Source of the DNA: Blastocatellia bacterium
GTDB taxonomy: Bacteria > Acidobacteriota > Blastocatellia > HR10 > J050
Reading direction: 5' to 3'
Length of the DNA: 46,714 nucleotides
Assembly: GCA_026985075.1 (NCBI GenBank)
Contig: JALSQX010000043.1
Location: 1 to 46,714 of the forward strand
The number at the start of each line of letters is the position of its first letter. Positions within the stretch are counted from its first letter, which is position 1. The position numbers and the translations under genes are program-made. Shown here in pieces: positions 497-22,038 of the stretch. The notes beneath the pieces were generated by a model. That model searched no databases and had not been told where the DNA came from. It was given only the letters and a program-made list of their open reading frames with translations.

Positions 497-610
497 CGGC
501 GAGACGGGGGATCGTTGAACCGAGGGGGCCGAGCGCACTCGAGCCGTAATCGCTCGATCCAGTGATTCGACCACAAGGAATGAATTGTGAGGCAGGAAGG
601 AGACGCCAGG

Positions 611-3600
611 ATGAATCAGCGAGTCAAGTCCATCATCTCGGTTGGAGTGCTTTTCATTGTGATGAGCGTGAGCCGCCCGATGGTCTTCGGGCAGGCGACG
701 ACGGGGACGATCTCGGGAACGGTGAGCGATGAGTCCGGTGCCGTGTTGCCCGAAGCCATCGTCACCGTCGTGCATGTGGCCACCGGCATGACCCGAACGG
801 TCAGGACCGACGAGAACGGTCGTTACCGGGTGCCCGGACTGCCCCTCGGCGATTATGAAGTTCGCGTCGAGCACTCCGGATTTCAGGCCGCCGTCCAGCG
901 AGGATTGACCCTCACTGTGGGCGAGGAGGCCGTCCTGGATTTTCATCTCCGGGTCGGTCAGCTCACCGAGGAGATCCTCGTCACGGGAACGGCCCCTCAG
1001 TTGGAGACGACCAAAGCATCCATCTCGCTCCTGGTCGATAGTCGGAAGATCAGGGACCTTCCGTTGAACGGTCGGAATTGGGCCCAACTGGTGACGCTCG
1101 AGACAGGGGTCATTCAATTCCGGGACATCACTCCTCAGACGGCGTTCCCGGGCGCCGGGAAGGGATTGCGATTATCGATTAATGGAGCGCGCCCCGAATT
1201 CAATAATTTCATCCTCGATGGGACCGATGTCAATGATGCGTTCAGCAATGCGCCAGGCGGGGCGGCCGGCGAATTCCTGGGCATCGATGCCCTGCGCGAG
1301 TTTCGCGCGTTGACCAATACCTACTCGGCCGAATACGGCCGGGTGGCCGGAGGCGTCGTCATGGCCACTACGCGCTCGGGGAGCAACGAGGTCCATGGTT
1401 CGGTGTTCGCCTTTCATCGCAATGATAACCTGGACGCCAAGAATTTCTTCGACCTTCCCTTCGAGCCGACGCCGGAATTCAAGCGCAATCAGTTCGGGTT
1501 CACCCTCGGCGGTCCCCTCATCAAAGATCGATCGTTCGCCTTCGGCAGTTATGAGGGACTCCGGGAACGACGGAGCACGACGTCGGTGGCCAGCGTGCCC
1601 AATGCGTCGGCGCGGATGGGCATCATCGATGGACAGCGGGTCGGCGTCGATCCGCGCGTTCGCCCTTATCTGGATCTGTTTCCGTTGCCCAATGTTCCGG
1701 GATCGGAGGACGTCGGAGGGGGCACGGGGCTGTTCACGTTCAACTTTCTCCAACCCACCCGCACCGATTTCTTCGTCGCGCGCATCGATCATCGATTCAC
1801 CGACAGCGACTCCCTGTTCGCCAGTTCTTCGTTCGCTGATACCGAGGTCACGCGAACCACGCCGTTGCCCGTCTACCAGATCAACGACTCGTCGCGGAAT
1901 CAATTCTTCACTCTCGAGTACCAGAAGGTGCTTTCCCCGCAGTGGCTCAACACGGCTCATTTCGGATTCAATCGGTCGCGGGCCAGCTCCATCGATGAAC
2001 CGCTCGTCTCCCTCGATCCTCGTCAGGGTCTGCTGCCCTTCATTCCAGGGAAACAGTTAGGCATCATTCGGGTATCCGGATTGTCGCTGCTCGGGCCGAC
2101 GATTTTCAATCCCACGGTGACGGTGCTCAACATGTTCCAATTCAAGGATGACATGACGGTGACGCGCGGCGGGCATTCGCTGAAGTGGGGATTGGAAGTG
2201 AAGCGGTTTCAGGTCAACGACTTCAACTCCCTGGTGGATAACGGGCTGTGGTTGTTCTTCTCCCTGCGCGACTTCCTGAGAGGTGCTCCCCAGGCGTTCC
2301 TGGGCATCGATCCCCAATCCGACATCACCCGCCATTATCGGCAATGGATGTTCGGACTCTACGTTCAGGACGATTACCGGATGCATCCCCGGCTCACCTT
2401 GAATCTCGGATTGCGATATGAGTGGGTCACTGTGCCCGGCGATATCCGCGGGCGCACGGCCAATTTTCGCCATCCGCTCACCGATATGCAGCCGACCATT
2501 GTCGGAGGACCGCCGACCCGGAATCCGTCGCTGAAGAACTTCGCTCCTCGCATCGGATTTGCTTGGGACGTGTTCGGGGATGGCCGGACGGCCGTGAGAG
2601 GGGGATTCGGATTGTTTTTCAATCCCCCTTTGTACAACGTGTACTTTGCCAGCTTCCTGTTCAATCCGCCGTTCACCACATTCACCGCGCAACCGGGCAT
2701 CCTCGTTTTCTTCCAGTTCCCTCAGGTGAGCGAGAGCATTTTTGTCCCCAATCTGGTCAATCCCGTGGAATTCGAGCTGAACAGTCCCTATCTGGCTCAA
2801 TACAACCTGAACCTCCAGCGGGAGGTGGCCGGCGGGATCGTCATCTCGGCCGCCTACATCGGTTCCCGGGGCATTCACTTGCCTCGTCCCTCGGAGCTCA
2901 ATTTCAATACGCCGGAAGTTCGGCCGGATGGATCGTTGTTCTTCCCGCTGAAAGCGGCCCCGGGAGGAGTGATCCGAAATAATCCTCATTTCGTCAGCAT
3001 GTTGCTCAGAGACACCGGCGGCAATTCCTGGTACAACGCCTTCACGCTGAGTGCGAACAAGCGCTGGCACGAGGGCTTGCAGTTTCAGGTCTCGTACACC
3101 ATTTCCAAGTCGATCGATGACTCGCCTCCCATCCTCCGCGATGTGGAGACCAGCGGCACGGTGTTGCTCAATTTCTTCGCCCCGCACCTGGACAAATCGC
3201 TCTCCAATTTCGATAAGCGTCAACGACTGAGCGTGAACTTCACCTATGATCTCCCGTTCGGTCCGAAGAAACCGTTCCTGTCGCATCTCCAGGGCGCGGG
3301 AGCCAAGCTCCTCGGTGGATGGCAAATTGGCGGCATTGTGGCACTGGAGTCGGGAACGCCGTTCACCGTCGAGAATGGACTGGATCGCGCTCGGACGGGA
3401 CAGATCGGACCGTTCCGGACTGACCGACCGAATCTGGCTCCCGGCGTACGGCGCATCCGCATTTTGGGCGATCCCTCGCGATGGTTCGATCCCAGTCAGT
3501 TCGAGCTTCAACCGGCCGGCTTCTTGGGCACGGCAGGCCGGAACATCTTGATCGGGCCGGGACTGGCCAATGTCGATTTCATCCTGGCCAAGACGACCCG

Positions 3601-3817
3601 GGTTGGAGAGCGCTTCAATGTGGAGTTCCGGACGGAGATATTCAATCTGTTCAATCGCCCCAACTTCGCGACGCCGGACAACTTCGGGCGCCTCGCCTTT
3701 CTGGGTACGGGTCCGCAGCCGGGCGCCGACGGTGTTCCCAATCCGGCCGCCGGGCGCATCACGCGAACGGTGACCACGTCGCGGCAAATCCAATTCGCTC
3801 TGAAGATCTCCTTTTGA
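611..3817 (+). CDS. Oar-like TonB-dependent outer membrane receptor with carboxypeptidase-regulatory-like domain
   Basis: A 1068-residue outer-membrane receptor. The ATG at 611 follows AAGGAG at 597-602 and gives a signal peptide (basic MNQRVK, then a hydrophobic run ending near GQA); a GTG at 587 in the same frame would bury that signal. After cleavage comes a carboxypeptidase-regulatory-like beta-sandwich (about residues 30-110, starting GTISGTVSDESGAVLPEA), then a plug region with NGARPEFNNFILDGTDVND, then a long barrel ending in phenylalanine (QIQFALKISF), the usual C-terminal signature of outer-membrane beta-barrels. Oar-type receptors are multiplied in Acidobacteriota; their ligands are mostly unknown. 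A paralog of identical length lies at 14563-17769 and the two bracket the oxidoreductase genes, which suggests import or secretion of the substrate those enzymes act on. That link is inference. Confidence 0.92.
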   Translation: MNQRVKSIISVGVLFIVMSVSRPMVFGQATTGTISGTVSDESGAVLPEAIVTVVHVATGMTRTVRTDENGRYRVPGLPLGDYEVRVEHSGFQAAVQRGLTLTVGEEAVLDFHLRVGQLTEEILVTGTAPQLETTKASISLLVDSRKIRDLPLNGRNWAQLVTLETGVIQFRDITPQTAFPGAGKGLRLSINGARPEFNNFILDGTDVNDAFSNAPGGAAGEFLGIDALREFRALTNTYSAEYGRVAGGVVMATTRSGSNEVHGSVFAFHRNDNLDAKNFFDLPFEPTPEFKRNQFGFTLGGPLIKDRSFAFGSYEGLRERRSTTSVASVPNASARMGIIDGQRVGVDPRVRPYLDLFPLPNVPGSEDVGGGTGLFTFNFLQPTRTDFFVARIDHRFTDSDSLFASSSFADTEVTRTTPLPVYQINDSSRNQFFTLEYQKVLSPQWLNTAHFGFNRSRASSIDEPLVSLDPRQGLLPFIPGKQLGIIRVSGLSLLGPTIFNPTVTVLNMFQFKDDMTVTRGGHSLKWGLEVKRFQVNDFNSLVDNGLWLFFSLRDFLRGAPQAFLGIDPQSDITRHYRQWMFGLYVQDDYRMHPRLTLNLGLRYEWVTVPGDIRGRTANFRHPLTDMQPTIVGGPPTRNPSLKNFAPRIGFAWDVFGDGRTAVRGGFGLFFNPPLYNVYFASFLFNPPFTTFTAQPGILVFFQFPQVSESIFVPNLVNPVEFELNSPYLAQYNLNLQREVAGGIVISAAYIGSRGIHLPRPSELNFNTPEVRPDGSLFFPLKAAPGGVIRNNPHFVSMLLRDTGGNSWYNAFTLSANKRWHEGLQFQVSYTISKSIDDSPPILRDVETSGTVLLNFFAPHLDKSLSNFDKRQRLSVNFTYDLPFGPKKPFLSHLQGAGAKLLGGWQIGGIVALESGTPFTVENGLDRARTGQIGPFRTDRPNLAPGVRRIRILGDPSRWFDPSQFELQPAGFLGTAGRNILIGPGLANVDFILAKTTRVGERFNVEFRTEIFNLFNRPNFATPDNFGRLAFLGTGPQPGADGVPNPAAGRITRTVTTSRQIQFALKISF

Positions 3818-7145: not shown

Positions 7146-9059
7146 ATGCGCGGGTTGGTCAGGGAGTATCTGGACGGGCGTCTCTCGCGTCGACAGTTCA
7201 TCAAGGAGATGATGGCCCTCGGCGTGAGTGCAGCCAGCGCCCGCGCGTTCATCGCCAGCTTTGAACCCCGGCCGGCGTTTGGAGAACAGGTCATGGAACT
7301 GACGGACGTCACTGGTGGTCGCGTGGTGGCCGAGATCTTGCGGGCCTGGGACGTGAAATACATTTTTGGTATTCCCGGGACGAACGAGGTTGGCTTCATC
7401 GATGCGCTGGTCGATATCCCCGAGCTTCACTACATCATGAGCTTGCACGAGGGACCCGTGGTGTGCATGGCCGATGGGTATGCGAGGCTCTCGGGTCGTC
7501 CGGCGTTCGTCAATCTGCATTCCATCGCGGGAACGGCCTATGGGCTCGGAGGACTGGTCGCTGCGTTTCAGGACAACACACCTCTTGTGGTCACCGTCGG
7601 TCGTCAAGACACGCGCTTGCGCGGTCGCGGGGCATTTCTGGAATCCCCGCGGCTGACGGCCATCCCGCGGCCCTACACCAAGTGGACCTGGGATGTACTG
7701 CGCGGCGAAAAGATTCCCGAGGTCATGGAGCGCGGGTTCAAGATCGCCACGACACCACCGGGAGGACCCGTATTCATCACGTTCTCCAAAGATCTATGGA
7801 AAGAGAAAGTGGACCGCGCCGAGATCCTTCCCCTGGATCGGTTTCGCATTCCCATGCGCATCCAACCCGATCCTAAGCTCGTCGCGGTGGCGGCGCGACT
7901 TCTCGTGGAAGCCGAGCATCCGCTCATCATGGCCGGCGACGAGATCAGCCGGTATGGCGGCATGAGCGAACTCGTAGAGTTGGCCGAGCTGCTCGGCGCT
8001 CCCGTGGTGGGGGAATTCATCACCGGTCATGCGCTCATCAATTTCCCCACCGACCATCCACTCTATCTCGGGCCTCTCCGGCCGCAGCTCGCTTACCCGC
8101 CCAAGATCGACGCGTTCCTCAACGTCGGAGGGAAGATGTTCTCCGAATTCGATTACTCGCCCGACCTCATCATCCCTCGACAGGCCAAGGTCATTCACAT
8201 GGGACTCAATACGACGCACATGGCTCGAACCTATCCCGTAGATGTCGCTCTCGTCACCCACGTCCAGGTCGGTCTCGCCGCGTTGATCTCGGAGATCAAA
8301 GGGCTGATGGCGTCGTCCAGAAATCGAATGAAAGAGCGGCGCCGAGAGGTGGAGCGCCAGAGGCGCCGTTGGCGAGCCCAGCTCGCTGAGGAGGCCAAGA
8401 GGGATTGGGACGCCGTGCCGATCTCGCCAGCCCGTCTGGCCATGGAGTTGAATGAGGTTCTCGATCCCGAGGGCATCGTGGTGAGCGAACTCGTCACTTC
8501 GGATCATTTCTTGCTGAGCTATATCGACTTTCATACCTCGGCCCGTGGTCGCACCTACGTCGCCTCCAGTGGAGGATGCTTGGGTTGGGGGATCGGAGCG
8601 GCCGCGGGCGCTAAACTGGCTCAACCTCATCGAGAGGTCACTCTGCTCGTCGGTGACGGGAGCTTCCAGTTCGGCGTCCAAGGCGTGTGGACGGCGGCCC
8701 GCTATGACATTCCCATCACCATCGTCATCTGGAATAACAGAGAGTACCAGGCGAATCGCATGGCCTTGAGCCGGTATGGGCGCCGAGCTGTGGCGGCGAA
8801 GAGATACATCGGCTCCCACTTGGGCGATCCGGAGATCGATCACGTGGGCATCGCCCGAGGCTATGGCGTGAGCGGAGAGCGGGTGACCGATCCCGACGAG
8901 ATGAGGCCGGCTTGGGAGAGAGCGCGACGCGCCAACCGGGATGGAAGGCCATATGTGCTCGATGTCCACATCAAACGGCGATTCAGAGACGCCGACCGAT
9001 ATGGCTACGAGACGTTCTCCGTCGCTGAATTGGCCAAGAGGACGAGACCCAGGAAGTGA
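7146..9059 (+). CDS. Thiamine-diphosphate enzyme (acetolactate synthase/benzoylformate decarboxylase type) with a twin-arginine signal
   Basis: A 637-residue ThDP enzyme of the POX/ALS/decarboxylase superfamily. The Pyr domain begins near residue 55 (GGRVVAEILRAWDVKYIFGIPGT) with the cofactor-activating Glu at 102 (SLHEGPVV). The middle domain includes AEHPLIMAGDEISRYGG. The PP domain has GDG at 503-505 and NN at 530-531, the Mg-ThDP motif. Before these is a Tat signal: S-R-R-Q-F-I-K with arginines 15-16, a weakly hydrophobic stretch rich in Ala and Met, and a possible cleavage site near PAFGEQ. If used, a cofactor-loaded decarboxylase or ligase would be exported folded to the periplasm, which is unusual. 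The substrate cannot be assigned; an oxalyl-CoA, benzoylformate or acetolactate type are all possible. It lies 12 bases after the DUF3179 gene and ahead of Tat-linked redox genes. Confidence 0.9.
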   Translation: MRGLVREYLDGRLSRRQFIKEMMALGVSAASARAFIASFEPRPAFGEQVMELTDVTGGRVVAEILRAWDVKYIFGIPGTNEVGFIDALVDIPELHYIMSLHEGPVVCMADGYARLSGRPAFVNLHSIAGTAYGLGGLVAAFQDNTPLVVTVGRQDTRLRGRGAFLESPRLTAIPRPYTKWTWDVLRGEKIPEVMERGFKIATTPPGGPVFITFSKDLWKEKVDRAEILPLDRFRIPMRIQPDPKLVAVAARLLVEAEHPLIMAGDEISRYGGMSELVELAELLGAPVVGEFITGHALINFPTDHPLYLGPLRPQLAYPPKIDAFLNVGGKMFSEFDYSPDLIIPRQAKVIHMGLNTTHMARTYPVDVALVTHVQVGLAALISEIKGLMASSRNRMKERRREVERQRRRWRAQLAEEAKRDWDAVPISPARLAMELNEVLDPEGIVVSELVTSDHFLLSYIDFHTSARGRTYVASSGGCLGWGIGAAAGAKLAQPHREVTLLVGDGSFQFGVQGVWTAARYDIPITIVIWNNREYQANRMALSRYGRRAVAAKRYIGSHLGDPEIDHVGIARGYGVSGERVTDPDEMRPAWERARRANRDGRPYVLDVHIKRRFRDADRYGYETFSVAELAKRTRPRK

Positions 9060-14562: not shown

Positions 14563-17500
14563 ATGAGGAGGCAAAAGCCAGTCTCTGCGTGTATTGGCTC
14601 TCTTTTCCGTGGGATCTTGCTCGTCTCGCTCTTGGTGGGATGGGCGACGCTTCCGGCCATCGCTCAGGTGACCACGGGGACCATCTCGGGAACGGTGACC
14701 GATGAGCGGGGCGCCGTTCTCCCGGGCGTGTCGGTGACCATCACCCATGTCGCCACGGGAACGGCGAGAACGCTCACCACGGACGATCGTGGCCGCTATC
14801 GGGCGCCCCGTCTCCCCGTGGGCGAGTATGAGATCCGGGCGACTCACGAGGGGTTCCAGTCGGCCGTCCGGCGCAATATCGTTCTCACCCTGGGACGCGA
14901 AGTCGTCGTCGATATCGTCATGAAGGTCGGCCAGATCACCGAGGAGATCGTCGTCACCGGTGGGGCGCGGTTGGTCAATACGACCAATGCTACCATTTCC
15001 GGGCTCATCGACCCCGAGCAGATTCGAAATCTCCCCTTGAATGGCCGATCATTTGCCGATCTCTCGGTGTTGGAAGCCGGGGTGACGCTCTTCACTAACG
15101 CGCTCTCCAGCGACGCCACCGGCGCCGGCTTCGGGGGGAGCGGCGTGCGCCTGGTGATGAATGGGATTCGGCCGGAACTGAATAACATTCTCATCGATGG
15201 CATTGACGCTCTGGATGCCTTCGGGAACGCTCCGGGAAGCGCCGCCGGCGTTCTCCTCGGCGTGGATACGATTCAGGAGTTCGAGACGATCACCGGAACC
15301 TATAGCGCCGAATATGGGCGGGCCGCCGGAGGCGTGATCAACGCGGTCACCCGATCGGGCACCAATGAATTTCACGGGTCGGTGTTCGAATTTCTCCGCA
15401 ACGACAATCTGGATGCGCGCAATTTCTTCGATCTGCGGGACAAGCCCGAATTCAAGCGCAATCAGTTCGGCTTCACGCTGGGCGGGCCCATCCTGCGCGA
15501 CCGGACCTTCTTCTTCACCAGCTATGAGGGGCTGCGGGAGCGCTTAGGCGTGACCCGATTCGCCCGCGTTCCCACCGCCGCGGCTCGAGAAGGGAATCTC
15601 CCCAGCGGCGCCATAGAGGTCAATCCGGCCGTCCGCCCGTTCCTGGATCTGTTTCCCCTTCCCAATGGACGGGATTTTGGCGATGGCACGGGCGAGTTCA
15701 TTTTCGGCGTGAATCTGCCCACCGACGAGGATTTCTATGTCGTCAAGATCGATCATCAGATCTCCGACCGGCAATCTTTCTTCGTGCGCTACTCTATCGA
15801 CGATGCCGAGAGACAGTTCCCTCCGTTAGGCAGCTTATTCGGGGCCGACCGGGAAATGGCCTTCAGCGTGCGCGAGAGTCGGCAACAACTGGCGACCATC
15901 CAGCACACGGGGATTCTCTCGCCACAATGGGTGAACACGTTTCGTTTCGGTTTCAATCGCGCGACGATCGTGGAGTTGAATTTCCCCGAGCGATTCCGAC
16001 CGGATCTCTCCTTCTTCGTCGGCGATAATACCGGCATGGGCGCGATCAACGTTCAGGGACTCTCATTGGTTGGGAACACCAGTGGCGGCGCCGGGCATAC
16101 CATTCAGAACGAGTTTCAGGTGAGCGATGACGTCTCCTACACGACCGGGAGTCACGGGCTCAAGTTCGGATTCGTCGCCAAGCGCTTTCAGTACAACGAC
16201 AATCGCCTCTTCCAGGACAAGGGGCAGTTCGTGTTCGATGGACTGGTGAATTTCCTGCAGGGCATTCCCGTTTCGTTCATCAAGGATATCCCCGGTAGCG
16301 ATTACACGAGTGCGCAGCGATTCAGCGTCTTCGGATTCTACGTTCAGGACGATTGGCGGGCCACATCCCGGTTCACGGTGAACTTGGGCTTTCGTTACGA
16401 GTTCATGACCACGCCCAAAGACGAGCTCAAGCCGGTGCGGAACTTCAAAGATCCGCTGCACGATGCCGAGGCCAGCGTCGTCTCCAACAAACCCATTCAG
16501 AATCCGTCGTTGAAGAATTTCATGCCTCGGATAGGTTTTGCCTGGGACCCGTTCGGGGATGGCAAGACATCCATCCGTGGCGGATTCGGGATCTTCTTCC
16601 AGCAGTTGACCGAAGCCAATCTCAACTTCGTCTTCCGGCTCAGCCAGCCGCCGGTCAAGACGGTGCTCATCGGCGGGCCGCCAGCTCGCCGGGCATTCCC
16701 CAAGGCGCCTATCCCCGATCCGTTCAAGCCGGTCATCGTCTTTCCGCTGGAATACGATGCCAAGAGTCCTTACACCATGCAGTGGAATCTCACCATCGAA
16801 CGCGAACTCCTGCCCGATGTCGTGTTCACCATCGGCTATGTGGGGAATCGAGGGGTGCACCTGGCGGCGCCAGCCGAGATCAACTTCAATCGTCGGGAGA
16901 TCCTGTCCGATGGGCGCGCCTTCTTCCCACCGGGACGACCGCAACGCATGAATCCAAACTTCGCCGCCATCAATATTCGCGACTTCGGCAGCGACTCCTG
17001 GTATCACGGATTGCAGGTGAGGGTGAGGAAGCAGATGAGTCATGGGTTCCAGGTGCAAGCCTCATATACCTTCTCCAAGGCCATCGATAACGCGCCGCCG
17101 ATCCTCCGCGACTTGGAAAACAGCCCGACCATCCTGTTCGATTGGTTCCAGCGCGATCTGGACAAGTCGCTCTCCGGGTTCGATGTGAGAAACAACTTCG
17201 TGTTCAATTTCTCTTATGAGCTGCCCATCGGTCCGGACCGCGCGTGGGGGAGTGACGTGCGCGGTTTCGCCGGCAAATTGCTGGAAGGATGGCAAATCAA
17301 CGGCATCCTCACTCTGGCATCGGGCAATCCATTCACCGTGGAGAACGCCTTCGATCGCGCGCGAACCTTCGCCATTGGTCCGTTCCGTCACGATCGTCCG
17401 AATGTCAAGCCGGGCGCGAGCAACAATCCCAAGATCGGTTCGCCGGATCGCTGGTTCGATCCCAATGCCTTCGAGCTCCAGCCGGCGGGCTTCCTCGGCA

Positions 17501-17769
17501 ATCTGGGGAGGAACACGCTCATCGGTCCTGGATTGGCCAACTTCGACTTCTCGCTGTTCAAGACGACTTCCATTGGCGAAAAAGTGGATATCCAGTTCCG
17601 GACCGAGATCTTCAATATTTTCAATCGCGCCAATTTCGCCACGCCGGATCGCCCGTTTCGCTTCGTGTTTCTCGATCCCTCGGGGATACCCAGTGGAGCC
17701 GCCGGGCGGATTACCAAGACGGCCACCACATCGCGGCAAATTCAGTTCGGACTGAAGATCCTCTTCTGA
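14563..17769 (+). CDS. Oar-like TonB-dependent outer membrane receptor, second copy
   Basis: A 1068-residue paralog of the receptor at 611-3817, with the same architecture: signal peptide ending near AIAQ, carboxypeptidase-regulatory-like domain (GTISGTVTDERGAVLPGV), plug with NGIRPELNNILIDGIDALD, and barrel ending QIQFGLKILF. AAAGGAGG at 14551-14558 sets the ATG at 14563. Long stretches match the first copy nearly residue for residue (for example FKRNQFGFTLGGP and the KSIDD/KAIDN-PPILRD region), so the pair arose by duplication, but the plug and loop regions differ and ligand choice may differ. It lies 163 bases after the exported hydrolase gene. Confidence 0.92.
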   Translation: MRRQKPVSACIGSLFRGILLVSLLVGWATLPAIAQVTTGTISGTVTDERGAVLPGVSVTITHVATGTARTLTTDDRGRYRAPRLPVGEYEIRATHEGFQSAVRRNIVLTLGREVVVDIVMKVGQITEEIVVTGGARLVNTTNATISGLIDPEQIRNLPLNGRSFADLSVLEAGVTLFTNALSSDATGAGFGGSGVRLVMNGIRPELNNILIDGIDALDAFGNAPGSAAGVLLGVDTIQEFETITGTYSAEYGRAAGGVINAVTRSGTNEFHGSVFEFLRNDNLDARNFFDLRDKPEFKRNQFGFTLGGPILRDRTFFFTSYEGLRERLGVTRFARVPTAAAREGNLPSGAIEVNPAVRPFLDLFPLPNGRDFGDGTGEFIFGVNLPTDEDFYVVKIDHQISDRQSFFVRYSIDDAERQFPPLGSLFGADREMAFSVRESRQQLATIQHTGILSPQWVNTFRFGFNRATIVELNFPERFRPDLSFFVGDNTGMGAINVQGLSLVGNTSGGAGHTIQNEFQVSDDVSYTTGSHGLKFGFVAKRFQYNDNRLFQDKGQFVFDGLVNFLQGIPVSFIKDIPGSDYTSAQRFSVFGFYVQDDWRATSRFTVNLGFRYEFMTTPKDELKPVRNFKDPLHDAEASVVSNKPIQNPSLKNFMPRIGFAWDPFGDGKTSIRGGFGIFFQQLTEANLNFVFRLSQPPVKTVLIGGPPARRAFPKAPIPDPFKPVIVFPLEYDAKSPYTMQWNLTIERELLPDVVFTIGYVGNRGVHLAAPAEINFNRREILSDGRAFFPPGRPQRMNPNFAAINIRDFGSDSWYHGLQVRVRKQMSHGFQVQASYTFSKAIDNAPPILRDLENSPTILFDWFQRDLDKSLSGFDVRNNFVFNFSYELPIGPDRAWGSDVRGFAGKLLEGWQINGILTLASGNPFTVENAFDRARTFAIGPFRHDRPNVKPGASNNPKIGSPDRWFDPNAFELQPAGFLGNLGRNTLIGPGLANFDFSLFKTTSIGEKVDIQFRTEIFNIFNRANFATPDRPFRFVFLDPSGIPSGAAGRITKTATTSRQIQFGLKILF

Positions 17770-17863
17770 GGTGATCGCTGGCCCAGTCGAGGCCCGTCCG
17801 TCCGGGAGCAGGCCTCGGTCGGTGGAGGCGGACGAGACATCACTGGCGGAGGACCCAACGACC

Positions 17864-18520
17864 ATGCGAGCCGAAGCGCTGAAGACACACCTGGGAATCG
17901 ATCGAGCCGCTCTGCTCGTCGTGGACGTGCAGAATGATTTTTGCCACCCGAACGGGGCTCTCGCCCGGGCGGGCAAGGATGTCTCCCATATCCAACGGAT
18001 GATCCCCAGGTTGCTCGAGTTCATCCAGGAGGCGCGTCGCGCCGGCCTCCCCATCATTTACCTGAAAATGGAGAACGATTCCTGGACGCGCCATCGCGCT
18101 CTGGTCTCCCAGGAACTGGCCGGCAGGCGGGAGGCCCTGTGTCTCACCGGTTCCTGGGGCGCAGAATTTTATCGCCTGGCGCCGGCCAGAGATGAGCGCG
18201 TCATCGTCAAGCGGCGATATAGCGGATTCGTGAACACGGACCTCGACCTGATCTTGCGAGCGCGCGGCATTCGGACGCTCATCATGACCGGTGTGGCGAG
18301 CAACGTTTGCGTGGAATCGACGGCCCGGGATGGCTTCATGCGCGGTTATGCGATCGTCTTTCTCTCTGATTGCACGGCGGCGACGGATCCGGACGAGCAT
18401 CGGGCGGCGCTGCGGAACATCGACCAGTATTTTGGCATCGTTGTGAGTTCCGAGGTCATCGTTCGGCTCTGGCGGTCGGAGAGACCGGACGCCGGCTGTA
18501 GTGAACAGACGGGGAGTTGA
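17864..18520 (+). CDS. Isochorismatase-family cysteine hydrolase
   Basis: A 218-residue cytoplasmic hydrolase. The catalytic triad is complete: Asp21 (VVDVQNDFC), Lys116 (VKRRYSGF) and Cys149 (ASNVCVEST). The family includes isochorismatase, nicotinamidase, ureidoacrylate and N-carbamoyl amidohydrolases. The typical nicotinamidase metal site (D-x-H) is not apparent, so an amidohydrolase of the RutB/N-carbamoylsarcosine kind is more likely, but the substrate is unknown. ATG 17864 has GGCGGAGGA about 10 bases upstream; the frame is open back to 17771 without a convincing site. It is followed after 132 bases by the OsmC-family gene. Confidence 0.9.
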   Translation: MRAEALKTHLGIDRAALLVVDVQNDFCHPNGALARAGKDVSHIQRMIPRLLEFIQEARRAGLPIIYLKMENDSWTRHRALVSQELAGRREALCLTGSWGAEFYRLAPARDERVIVKRRYSGFVNTDLDLILRARGIRTLIMTGVASNVCVESTARDGFMRGYAIVFLSDCTAATDPDEHRAALRNIDQYFGIVVSSEVIVRLWRSERPDAGCSEQTGS

Positions 18521-18652
18521 ACGCTCGGAAAGCGAATGCGTGGGGGCTGCGAGCGCGAGGCACTCATCCCAAAGGGGCGGAACGCCCGGCGCATCCTCCC
18601 GGGAATCATCTGCTCCGGGAGCGCACATCATGAGCCAAGGAGGTATGACACG

Positions 18653-19246
18653 ATGGAAGAGATCGTCAGAAAGCTCGTCTCTCGGAAGGCCAAACCGGGG
18701 AAGGGGGGGGTCCCTGGGAGCCTCCAACCCCATCAGGATCGGGAACTCATCGTCTCATTAGAGGCCGAGAGCCTGGAGGGGATGAGGAAGCGGGCCGTCG
18801 TGACGCTGGAACAGCCCGTCGGCAGTACCTTTTCGATCATCTGCGATGAAGGGGCCTATTTGGGCGGCGATGATACGGCGCCCCCGCCGTTGGCCTATTT
18901 CAGCGCGGCCATCGCCTTTTGACTGTTGACCCAACTTTCCCGGTTCGGGAAAATCACCAAGCTCGATGTCCGTTCCATTCGACTCAAGCAAGTGACGCGC
19001 TTCTATATGAAGGGATCGGCATTAGCGGGGACGTTGAGGGGAGGGCCGCTCGGTCTGGAGACGGAGATCGCCATCGAATCCGACGAGCCGCCGGAGAAGA
19101 TTCGACATTTGATCAAGATGGGCGAGCAAACCTGTTTCACTCTTCAGTCGCTCATCCACCCCGTGCCGGTCAAAACGAGGGCGACCCTCAACGGCCATCC
19201 CCTCGACTTGCCGAGCGATGAGCCCCCGGTCACTGAGGAAGGATGA
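18653..19246 (+). CDS. OsmC-family selenoprotein; in-frame TGA (18920-18922) read as selenocysteine 90
   Basis: OsmC/Ohr-type thiol peroxidase fold, 197 residues if TGA at 18920-18922 is read through. AAGGAGG at 18637-18643 sets ATG 18653. The upstream part ends GGDDTAPPPLAYFSAAIAF and the downstream part begins LLTQLSRFGKITKLDV in the same frame. In OsmC homologs the residue between these two segments is the peroxidatic Cys, so the TGA replaces precisely that codon. The second conserved Cys is present at 161 (MGEQTCFTLQSL), and the usual PVPVKTRATLNG end follows. A hairpin begins 13 bases after the TGA, with its apical loop 19 bases after. OsmC-like selenoproteins have been described from environmental genomes. 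No selA, selB, selC or selD lies in the window, so decoding must be supplied from elsewhere. A standard gene caller would report two broken halves (18653-18922 and about 18926-19246). Confidence 0.88.
18936..18952 (+). promoter_or_regulatory. Candidate bacterial SECIS hairpin
   Basis: TTTCCC at 18936-18941 pairs perfectly with GGGAAA at 18947-18952 around loop GGTTC (18942-18946). The loop starts 19 bases after the TGA. Bacterial SECIS elements lie just downstream of the Sec UGA in the coding sequence, with a short stem and a loop beginning with G; the E. coli fdhF loop contains GGUC. The stem, loop and distance all agree with that pattern. Confidence 0.65.
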
Positions 19247-19306: not shown

Positions 19307-20605
19307 ATGACACATCAGAGGACGCCGAACGAGAGGGAGAAGCTCAATGAGCCACGGGATAAATTCCAGGCGCTCATGGAGCGCGTGATGCGCGACAATC
19401 CGTTCTATCGGGCGAAATACGAGCCCTTGGGGTTTTCAGCTCGCCGACCGCCGACGTTCGATGAGCTGCCGCACCTGCCATTCACTCTGAAGTCGGAGCT
19501 GATCGACGACCAGCAACGCCATCCACCGTTTGGCCGTAACCTGACGTTTCCTCTGTCTCGCTATACTCGCGTGCATCAAACATCGGGGACCACGGGACGA
19601 CCGCTCCGCTGGTTAGATACGGCAGAGAGCTGGCAATGGTGGCTCGATTGCTGGCAGGAGATCTATCGTGCAGCAGAGGTGAGCCCGGATGATCGCATTT
19701 TCGTGGCCTTCTCATTCGGGCCGTTCATCGGATTCTGGACGGCGTTCGAAGCGGGACAGCGGCTGGGCGCTCTGGTGATGCCTGGAGGAGGGCTCAGCTC
19801 CAAACAGCGGTTGGAGACGTTGTTGGAGAACGACGCCACGGTGCTCGTCTGTACGCCGACCTATGCGTTGCGGCTCGCCGAGGTGGCCAAAGAGAACGGC
19901 ATCGATCTGGCCAGCAGCGCCATCCGGGTCACCATCCACGCGGGCGAGCCGGGCGCCAGCGTGCCCAACGTCAAATCGCGCATCGAGGCGGCGTGGGGGG
20001 CGCGCTGCGTCGATCATGCCGGCGCGACCGAGGTGGGCGCCTGGGGATATAGTTGCGGTGAGCGGAATCACATGCATATCAACGAAGACGAGTTCATTGC
20101 CGAAGTGATCGATCCGGAGACGCACGCCCCCGTCGAACCCGACGCCGATGGTGTGCAGCGGGGGGAACTGGTGCTCACCAATCTGGGACGGGTGGGGAGC
20201 CCGGTCATTCGCTACCGGACCGGCGATCTCGTCGAGTTGACCCGTCAGCCCTGTCCCTGCGGGCGCCCTACGGCGGTGCTGCGCGGCGGGGTTCTCGGGC
20301 GCATCGACCACATGTTCATCATCCGCGGGATCAACGTCTTTCCCAGCGCGCTGGAGAATCTCATTCGCGCGTTTCCCGAAATCGAAGAGTTTGAAGTCGG
20401 CGTCGAACATCACCGCGCCATGGCCGAACTCGTCATTCGGATCGAAGTCAATGGCGAGAGGCCCGCCGATGTGGCCGCGGCGCTCCAGCAGCACGTCCAC
20501 GAGCGTCTCAATCTGCGACCCGTAGTCCGAGTTGTTGACCGGGGGAGCCTCCCTCGGTACGAGTTGAAAGCGCGACGATTCAAATTCTCCGAGGAGGGTC
20601 GGTGA
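19307..20605 (+). CDS. Phenylacetate-CoA ligase-like AMP-dependent ligase
   Basis: A 432-residue acyl-adenylate-forming ligase of the PaaK family, which activates aryl or short acids to CoA thioesters with ATP in the cytoplasm. Motifs: the P-loop-like HQTSGTTGRPLRW near residues 83-95, HAGATEVGAWGYSC (substrate and adenine region), ELVLTNLGRVGSPVIRYRTGDLV, a cysteine cluster CPCGRP and the C-terminal hinge GRIDHMFIIRGINVFPSALE. GAGGAG about 8 bases before ATG 19307. The TGA overlaps the start of the aldehyde dehydrogenase gene by one base, so the two are translationally coupled; aldehyde to acid to acyl-CoA is the simplest shared route. The acid substrate is unknown. Confidence 0.9.
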   Translation: MTHQRTPNEREKLNEPRDKFQALMERVMRDNPFYRAKYEPLGFSARRPPTFDELPHLPFTLKSELIDDQQRHPPFGRNLTFPLSRYTRVHQTSGTTGRPLRWLDTAESWQWWLDCWQEIYRAAEVSPDDRIFVAFSFGPFIGFWTAFEAGQRLGALVMPGGGLSSKQRLETLLENDATVLVCTPTYALRLAEVAKENGIDLASSAIRVTIHAGEPGASVPNVKSRIEAAWGARCVDHAGATEVGAWGYSCGERNHMHINEDEFIAEVIDPETHAPVEPDADGVQRGELVLTNLGRVGSPVIRYRTGDLVELTRQPCPCGRPTAVLRGGVLGRIDHMFIIRGINVFPSALENLIRAFPEIEEFEVGVEHHRAMAELVIRIEVNGERPADVAAALQQHVHERLNLRPVVRVVDRGSLPRYELKARRFKFSEEGR

Positions 20606-22038
20606 TGAAGCGATGGGGACTCTACTACGATGGTCAATGGCATGAAGCGGTCACACACCACGTGCTCCGTTCCCCGATCGATGGAGAGCCACTGGCCGAG
20701 ATCGGATTGGCATCGTGGGAGGAGGCCGACGTGGCGGTGGAGAGCGTCGCTCGCGCCGCGGAAGATGTCGCCCGTCGACCGACGTTCGAGCGGGCCCGGC
20801 TCCTCCGCCAGATTGCCGAGAAGTTGGATGCCCGTCGCGAGGAATTCGCTCGGGCCATCTGTCTGGAAGCGGCCAAACCGATCACCGCGGCGCGCGCCGA
20901 AGTTCATCGCGCCATCCAAACGTTCGCCTTGTCGGCCGAAGAAGTCAATCACTTATTCGGCGAACTGCTCCCGCTCGACCTGCTCCCTGATGTGCCCAGT
21001 TCATCGGGCACGCCCATGCGGATGGCCTTGACGCGACGCGCCCCCGTGGGCCCGGTGCTGGCCATCCCAGCGTTCAATTTTCCGCTCAACCTCCCGGCGC
21101 ACAAGATTGCTCCCGCGCTGGCCGCCGGATGTCCCGTGTTGCTCAAACCCGCGCCTCAGACGCCCTGGACGGCCCTCATGCTGGCGGAAGTCATCCATGA
21201 GGTGGGCGCTCCGGCCGGGAGTTTCGCTCTGCTGCCTTGCACCAATGAGGTGGCCGAGCGTCTCGTTCGCGATGAGCGATTCGCGCTGCTCACGTTCACC
21301 GGCAGCGATCGCGTGGGATGGCATTTGAAGAACATCTGTGGCAAGAAGCGAACGCTTTTAGAACTGGGAGGGAACGGAGCGGTGGTCATTGCCGAAGATG
21401 CCGATGTGAATCATGCCGTCGGTCGATGCTTGTTCGGCGCCTTCGTGTATGCCGGGCAGGTCTGCGTCGGCGTTCAGCGCATCTATGTCGTCGAGTCCCT
21501 CTATGAGCCGTTCGTTGAGAAATTCGCCAGTGCGGCGAGGAGGCTACGACCGCGAGATCCGCAGGATGAACAGTCATTATTGGGTCCGATGATCACCGAG
21601 GCGGCGGCAGCCCGCGCCCAAGCCTGGGTTCGAGAGGCCGTCGCTGCCGGAGCGGAAGTCGTCGCCGGCGGGGAACGCGACGGAGCGTGGATGGAACCAA
21701 CCGTTCTCATCAACGTGACGCCCGAGATGCGCGTCGTCTGCCAGGAGGTCTTCGCTCCGGTGGTCACCATCTCATCGGTGCCCGATTGGGAAGCGGGTTT
21801 GGCCGAAGCCAACGATCCCGTTTATGGGCTTCAGGCGGGCATCTTCACCAGCAATGTACATCGCGTCTTGCAGGCATTCGATCGACTTCGCTCCGGCGGC
21901 ATCGTAGTCAATGACGTCCCCACATTTCGCGCTGAGCATGTGCCCTTTGGTGGTATGAATCAATCGGGACAAGGTCGGGAGAGCGTCCGTCACACGATAG
22001 AAGCGATGACCGAATGGAAAGCGTTGATCTTCCCCTGA
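20605..22038 (+). CDS. NAD(P)-dependent aldehyde dehydrogenase
   Basis: A 477-residue member of the ALDH superfamily. The general base is Glu253 (LLELGGNG) and the nucleophile Cys287 (YAGQVCVGVQ); their 34-residue spacing equals that of Glu268/Cys302 in classical enzymes. The Rossmann segment has FTGSDRVGWHL. It oxidises an aldehyde to the acid in the cytoplasm; the family is broad and the sequence alone does not separate lactaldehyde, glyceraldehyde-3-phosphate and aromatic aldehyde types. The ATG at 20605 shares its A with the preceding TGA, with GAGGAGGG just upstream. With the upstream CoA ligase it forms a two-step aldehyde to acyl-CoA module. Confidence 0.92.
   Translation: MKRWGLYYDGQWHEAVTHHVLRSPIDGEPLAEIGLASWEEADVAVESVARAAEDVARRPTFERARLLRQIAEKLDARREEFARAICLEAAKPITAARAEVHRAIQTFALSAEEVNHLFGELLPLDLLPDVPSSSGTPMRMALTRRAPVGPVLAIPAFNFPLNLPAHKIAPALAAGCPVLLKPAPQTPWTALMLAEVIHEVGAPAGSFALLPCTNEVAERLVRDERFALLTFTGSDRVGWHLKNICGKKRTLLELGGNGAVVIAEDADVNHAVGRCLFGAFVYAGQVCVGVQRIYVVESLYEPFVEKFASAARRLRPRDPQDEQSLLGPMITEAAAARAQAWVREAVAAGAEVVAGGERDGAWMEPTVLINVTPEMRVVCQEVFAPVVTISSVPDWEAGLAEANDPVYGLQAGIFTSNVHRVLQAFDRLRSGGIVVNDVPTFRAEHVPFGGMNQSGQGRESVRHTIEAMTEWKALIFP

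Follow-up and report, generated by a model that had tools for sequence, protein, structure and literature searches.

The DNA analysed here, a stretch of 46,714 nt from a Blastocatellia bacterium (hereafter, the window), carries between a hydrolase gene and the gene of a PaaK-type ligase a frame that the standard code splits into two ORFs, 18536-18922 and 18926-19246 (Table 1). A first, sequence-only reading had taken these for the halves of one frame parted only by a TGA, and the translation and the ORF list bear this out: read through, the gene gives a single product of 197 residues, in which residue 90 is U and residue 161 is Cys, the predicted Sec90 being preceded by GGDDTAPPPLAYFSAAIAF and followed by LLTQLSRFG. 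The likely start is ATG 18653, which is preceded by AAGGAGG, and not ATG 18536, although the latter comes first in the open frame. The window holds other TGA-interrupted frames besides this one.

Table 1. Features of the predicted OsmC-related selenoprotein gene and its neighbours in the window
Feature	Positions	Strand	Remarks
Isochorismatase-family (RutB-like) hydrolase	17771..18520	+	Upstream neighbour; same order in L017
Shine-Dalgarno-like AAGGAGG	18638..18644	+	8 nt before ATG 18653; read from the sequence
OsmC-related gene, predicted selenoprotein	18653..19246	+	197 aa with UGA 18920 as Sec; stop TGA 19244-19246
In-frame TGA, predicted Sec90	18920..18922	+	Column of the OsmC/Ohr reactive Cys
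Putative SECIS hairpin UUUCCCG-GUU-CGGGAAA	18936..18952	+	13 nt after UGA; G in apical loop
Codon TGT, Cys161	19133..19135	+	Invariant; aligned with the second Cys of Ohr
PaaK-type acyl/aryl-CoA ligase	19307..20605	+	60 nt downstream; OsmC-PaaK adjacency conserved
Aldehyde dehydrogenase	20602..22038	+	Overlaps the end of the PaaK-type gene

Among the NCBIfam models, the product matches NF041052, "OsmC-related (seleno)protein", over residues 34-181 with 177.8 bits (cut-off 95), and it also matches PF02566 OsmC with 37.8 bits (cut-off 27.5). Scanning genome contigs yielded 11 relatives, and scanning viral contigs yielded none. Five other MAGs have TGA at the same codon, at identities of 38-96%: L017 (96%, an Acidobacteria MAG), L018 and L019 (81%, labelled Deltaproteobacteria), L020 (70%, labelled Actinomycetota) and L022 (38%, Rokuibacteriota). 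Six relatives, L021 and L023-L027, have Cys there, and the occurrence of Sec or Cys at one column is a likeness to the NF041052 family. In the alignment of the 12 members, the TGA column is invariantly Cys or Sec, T93, Q94, R97 and C161 are invariant, and U90 with its LLTQ fits the pattern xxTQ after Sec/Cys. The proposal, made from the sequence alone, that Sec occupies the reactive-Cys column of an OsmC-family selenoprotein is supported by these profile matches and by the alignment, and the second Cys which it had called intact is present in the product and invariant in all 12 members.

Several NF041052 relatives consist of two fused domains (L023, 397 aa) or come as tandem pairs, whereas the gene in the window is a single stand-alone copy. 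The tandem pairs lie at 589-1188 and 2186-2743 in L018 and at 963-1646 and 1732-2283 in L019, and their upstream copies also present TGA at the same codon; in L018, a TRAP transporter (DctM) gene is found just downstream of the pair, on the opposite strand. The gene is present with its TGA in a second genome of the genus (G396, apparently the L017 record) and absent from the one genome examined of another genus in the family.

Predicted decoding of the in-frame UGA

The hairpin that follows the UGA has a core, CCCG-GU[U/A]-CGGG, common to all eight Sec genes, with further pairs outward, and comparison of the Sec genes places the start of the stem 13 nt after the UGA in the register of the window. 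In six Sec genes, its stability was compared with that obtained when the same ten codons were recoded synonymously 2000 times. The fraction of recodings that were as stable was 0.0005-0.002 in five Sec genes (z -3.2 to -3.8) and 0.08 in L022, whose hairpin is weaker, and a stable hairpin at that place was found in none of the six Cys genes. In the alignment, 96% of the cells pair and two pairs are changed on both sides; the covariation score was reached by 6 of 500 shuffles and every slid register was worse. L018 and L019 originate from one and the same site, so that this covariation rests on few independent lineages. A simple fold of the 54 nt is not unusual, being no better than that of dinucleotide shuffles (z 0.14), and we therefore put weight on the synonymous and comparative tests.

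The part of the gene that lies after the TGA evolves like the part before it: the dN/dS ratio between the window and L017 is 0.06 before the TGA and 0.04 after, and the corresponding values for L018 are 0.09 and 0.08. Selection on the protein thus extends past the TGA, and purifying selection acts on the second half of the gene as on the first. Between L018 2186-2743 and L019 1732-2283, synonymous differences per site fall from 0.78 before the TGA to 0.33 after, as if through recombination or chimerism.

The genome is a draft of 105 contigs and 5.2 Mb, 98.7% complete. Profile searches found selA (577 bits), selB (370.9 bits) and selD (369.2 bits), all above cut-off, and a tRNA-Sec gene (selC) with 72.8 bits, which ARAGORN calls tRNA-SeC with anticodon (tca). 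All four Sec-decoding genes that the sequence-only reading had proposed to look for are therefore present. Of the three observations that it had named as speaking against selenocysteine, a TGA off the Cys column, a lack of Sec-decoding genes and reads with TGT or TGC at 18920-18922, none was made. Another match to RF01852, in C64 (48.1 bits, over cut-off), was rejected as a second selC, as it is tRNA-Ser according to ARAGORN. The selD gene (G000:C33:250191-251117, minus strand; L030) has an in-frame TGA of its own near the start, in SHGAGUACK.

We propose that UGA 18920 would be read as selenocysteine by SelB and tRNA-Sec, aided by the hairpin at 18936-18952. Such decoding is strongly supported by the sequence comparisons, and we consider the whole reading, Sec insertion together with membership of the known OsmC-related (seleno)protein family, to be very probable. 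A nonsense mutation would instead leave either a decaying pseudogene or two half-proteins translated separately, as the split of the frame under the standard code and a possible start at TTG 18926 would allow, but relatives with as little as 38% identity retain the same TGA, purifying selection is seen after it and the hairpin is conserved; this explanation is highly improbable and already largely refuted by the conservation of the TGA. An error of sequencing or assembly at a true TGT or TGC codon, conceivable in a draft of 105 contigs, is very unlikely, to the point of being negligible, because five further MAGs, one of them from the same genus, have this TGA.

Redox residues and the peroxidase question

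The AlphaFold model of the product, of moderate confidence (pLDDT 74), matches the structures 2opl (Z 12.6, rmsd 3.9, 152 residues aligned), 3cje (Z 10.1, rmsd 3.1, 114 aligned) and Ohr 1n2f (Z 10.4, rmsd 4.1, 110 aligned). The second of these, an OsmC-like protein from Jannaschia, is also matched in sequence (E 3.8e-22): it is 25% identical to the product and has the same SAPPPLA..C..TQ motif and the second Cys, but it is a Cys form, with Cys where the window protein would have Sec. The Ohr/OsmC thiol peroxidases (3eer, 1n2f and 1nye), at 12-15% identity, are alike in the OsmC fold and in the two redox positions, and the family profile places Sec90 and Cys161 on the two Cys of Vibrio Ohr 3eer. 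Within this fold, the attack would fall to Sec90 and the resolving step most likely to Cys161, which would result in a selenenylsulfide redox cycle; from the alignment, a two-residue selenol/thiol cycle is likely.

The sequence-only reading went one step further and made the protein a peroxidase, that is, a classical organic-hydroperoxide enzyme of the Ohr/OsmC type with Sec inserted. This view is favoured by the OsmC fold, by the placing of Sec in the peroxidatic column and of Cys161 in the resolving one, and by the fact that selenols generally react faster as nucleophiles than thiols do. However, the Glu that forms part of the peroxidase site in Ohr/OsmC corresponds here to Leu80: in the HMMER alignment with 3eer, on which this statement rests (hhalign with E. 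coli OsmC gave none usable), the Glu of the NPEQLF motif falls on Leu80, ten residues before Sec90. No Glu is found at that column in any of the 12 aligned family members, whereas another OsmC of the same genome (C33) retains a Glu of the SPEHYF type. As regards the catalytic Arg of the Ohr/OsmC peroxidases, the sequence alignment alone shows no Arg in the loop before the helix (66-80) and two invariant ones, R30 and R97. Moreover, no oxidative-stress gene was recognised among the genes adjoining the OsmC gene, and it is the link with a CoA ligase that is conserved. The assignment as a peroxidase is thus unproven, and we hold it to be quite possible, if short of probable.

Gene neighbourhood and a possible catabolic role

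The entire order of the neighbours is retained in L017. The adjacency of OsmC and PaaK-type genes, seen in Acidobacteriota only, is found in L017, L023-L026, G041 and G253; in all of these except L017, the OsmC gene codes for a two-domain Cys form and is directly followed by the gene of a PaaK-type ligase 50-55% identical to that of the window. In L023, the divergent neighbours are BoxC (856.8 bits) and BoxB (730.2 bits), both over cut-off, and G041 and G253 show the same boxB/boxC arrangement. No BoxB over cut-off is present in the genome of the window. Regarded as a gene group, the two-domain Cys OsmC and the PaaK-type ligase, divergent to boxC and boxB (benzoyl-CoA epoxidation), recur in L023 1132-6833, L097 and L098. 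The nearest plasmid relative of the ligase is from Azoarcus pAZKH, where it lies in a phenylphosphate carboxylase cluster and has no OsmC neighbour, and plasmids of Comamonas and Nitratireductor carry OsmC proteins of two-domain size near reductive dehalogenases. Our literature search found no paper tying OsmC to box genes.

By gene association only, a role of the OsmC selenoprotein in aromatic acyl-CoA metabolism is plausible. Because the Glu is missing and the adjacency with PaaK is conserved, we consider a catabolic role somewhat likelier than a general defence against organic hydroperoxides. The protein would then work with the adjacent PaaK-type ligase, as its relatives would next to BoxB and BoxC, and its Sec might handle a reactive intermediate, e.g., an epoxide, a peroxide or a thiol adduct; it might reduce or capture an electrophile or peroxide that is formed in aromatic-acid/acyl-CoA catabolism. 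Extended to the family, the proposal that OsmC-related selenoproteins are redox partners in aromatic-acid/acyl-CoA catabolism, and not peroxide-defence enzymes, is possible and is offered tentatively.

Elsewhere in the window, a gene for a ThDP enzyme (7146-9059), whose best NCBIfam match is benzoylformate decarboxylase, below cut-off (336 bits vs. 493), precedes genes for a GMC oxidoreductase and a multihaem cytochrome c, a group that could fit aromatic catabolism. The upstream gene group is flanked by the genes of two large outer-membrane proteins of TonB type (587-3817 and 14563-17769), which are about 50% identical to each other.

Place among the OsmC-type selenoproteins

In 2005, 3 OsmC-like selenoprotein sequences with a UxxT motif were reported from the Sargasso Sea (PMC1088965); GOS gave 5 sequences (PMC2398784), and later reviews include these proteins (PMC13188914, PMC9312934). 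Likened by published description, these forms and the one described here are similar in UxxT (here ULLT) and in a bacterial SECIS whose apical loop holds a G, but the former come from marine metagenomes and the latter from an acidobacterial genome. A Sec-containing OsmC is thus not new: the family is a known one because NF041052 is in the NCBI library and UxxT OsmC selenoproteins have been published, and it is already described as an OsmC-type selenoprotein. For the same reason, automatic annotation need not miss the gene, contrary to what had been expected from the sequence alone, since the curated NCBI model is itself named "(seleno)protein".

The same genome presents a second OsmC gene (G000:C20:153297-153758, minus strand; L071 2798-3259) with TGA at the reactive-Cys column, in AGULTGTL. 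Its group gave 30 matches with E < 1e-20 in 29 of 386 Acidobacteriota genomes, each with exactly one TGA, which stands at the same column in all 15 fetched (relatives L083-L096), and its hairpin, at columns 23-39 from the UGA, covaries, with 9 cells changed on both sides (0/500 shuffles). Compared with NCBIfam, the C20 protein met no cut-off (best match 24.7 bits vs. 85.8), and for nine members of the group the best E-value for any family was 1.4e-6. This looks like a distinct, perhaps all-Sec group that is widespread in Acidobacteriota, for which we retain the word candidate.

With the gene of the window, a selenoprotein family described from metagenomic sequences has a clean example in an acidobacterial genome, alongside its Sec and Cys relatives and its tandem and fused forms. 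Homology alone gives no ground for calling OsmC-type selenoproteins peroxidases, and the conserved neighbourhood constitutes a testable lead on their role.
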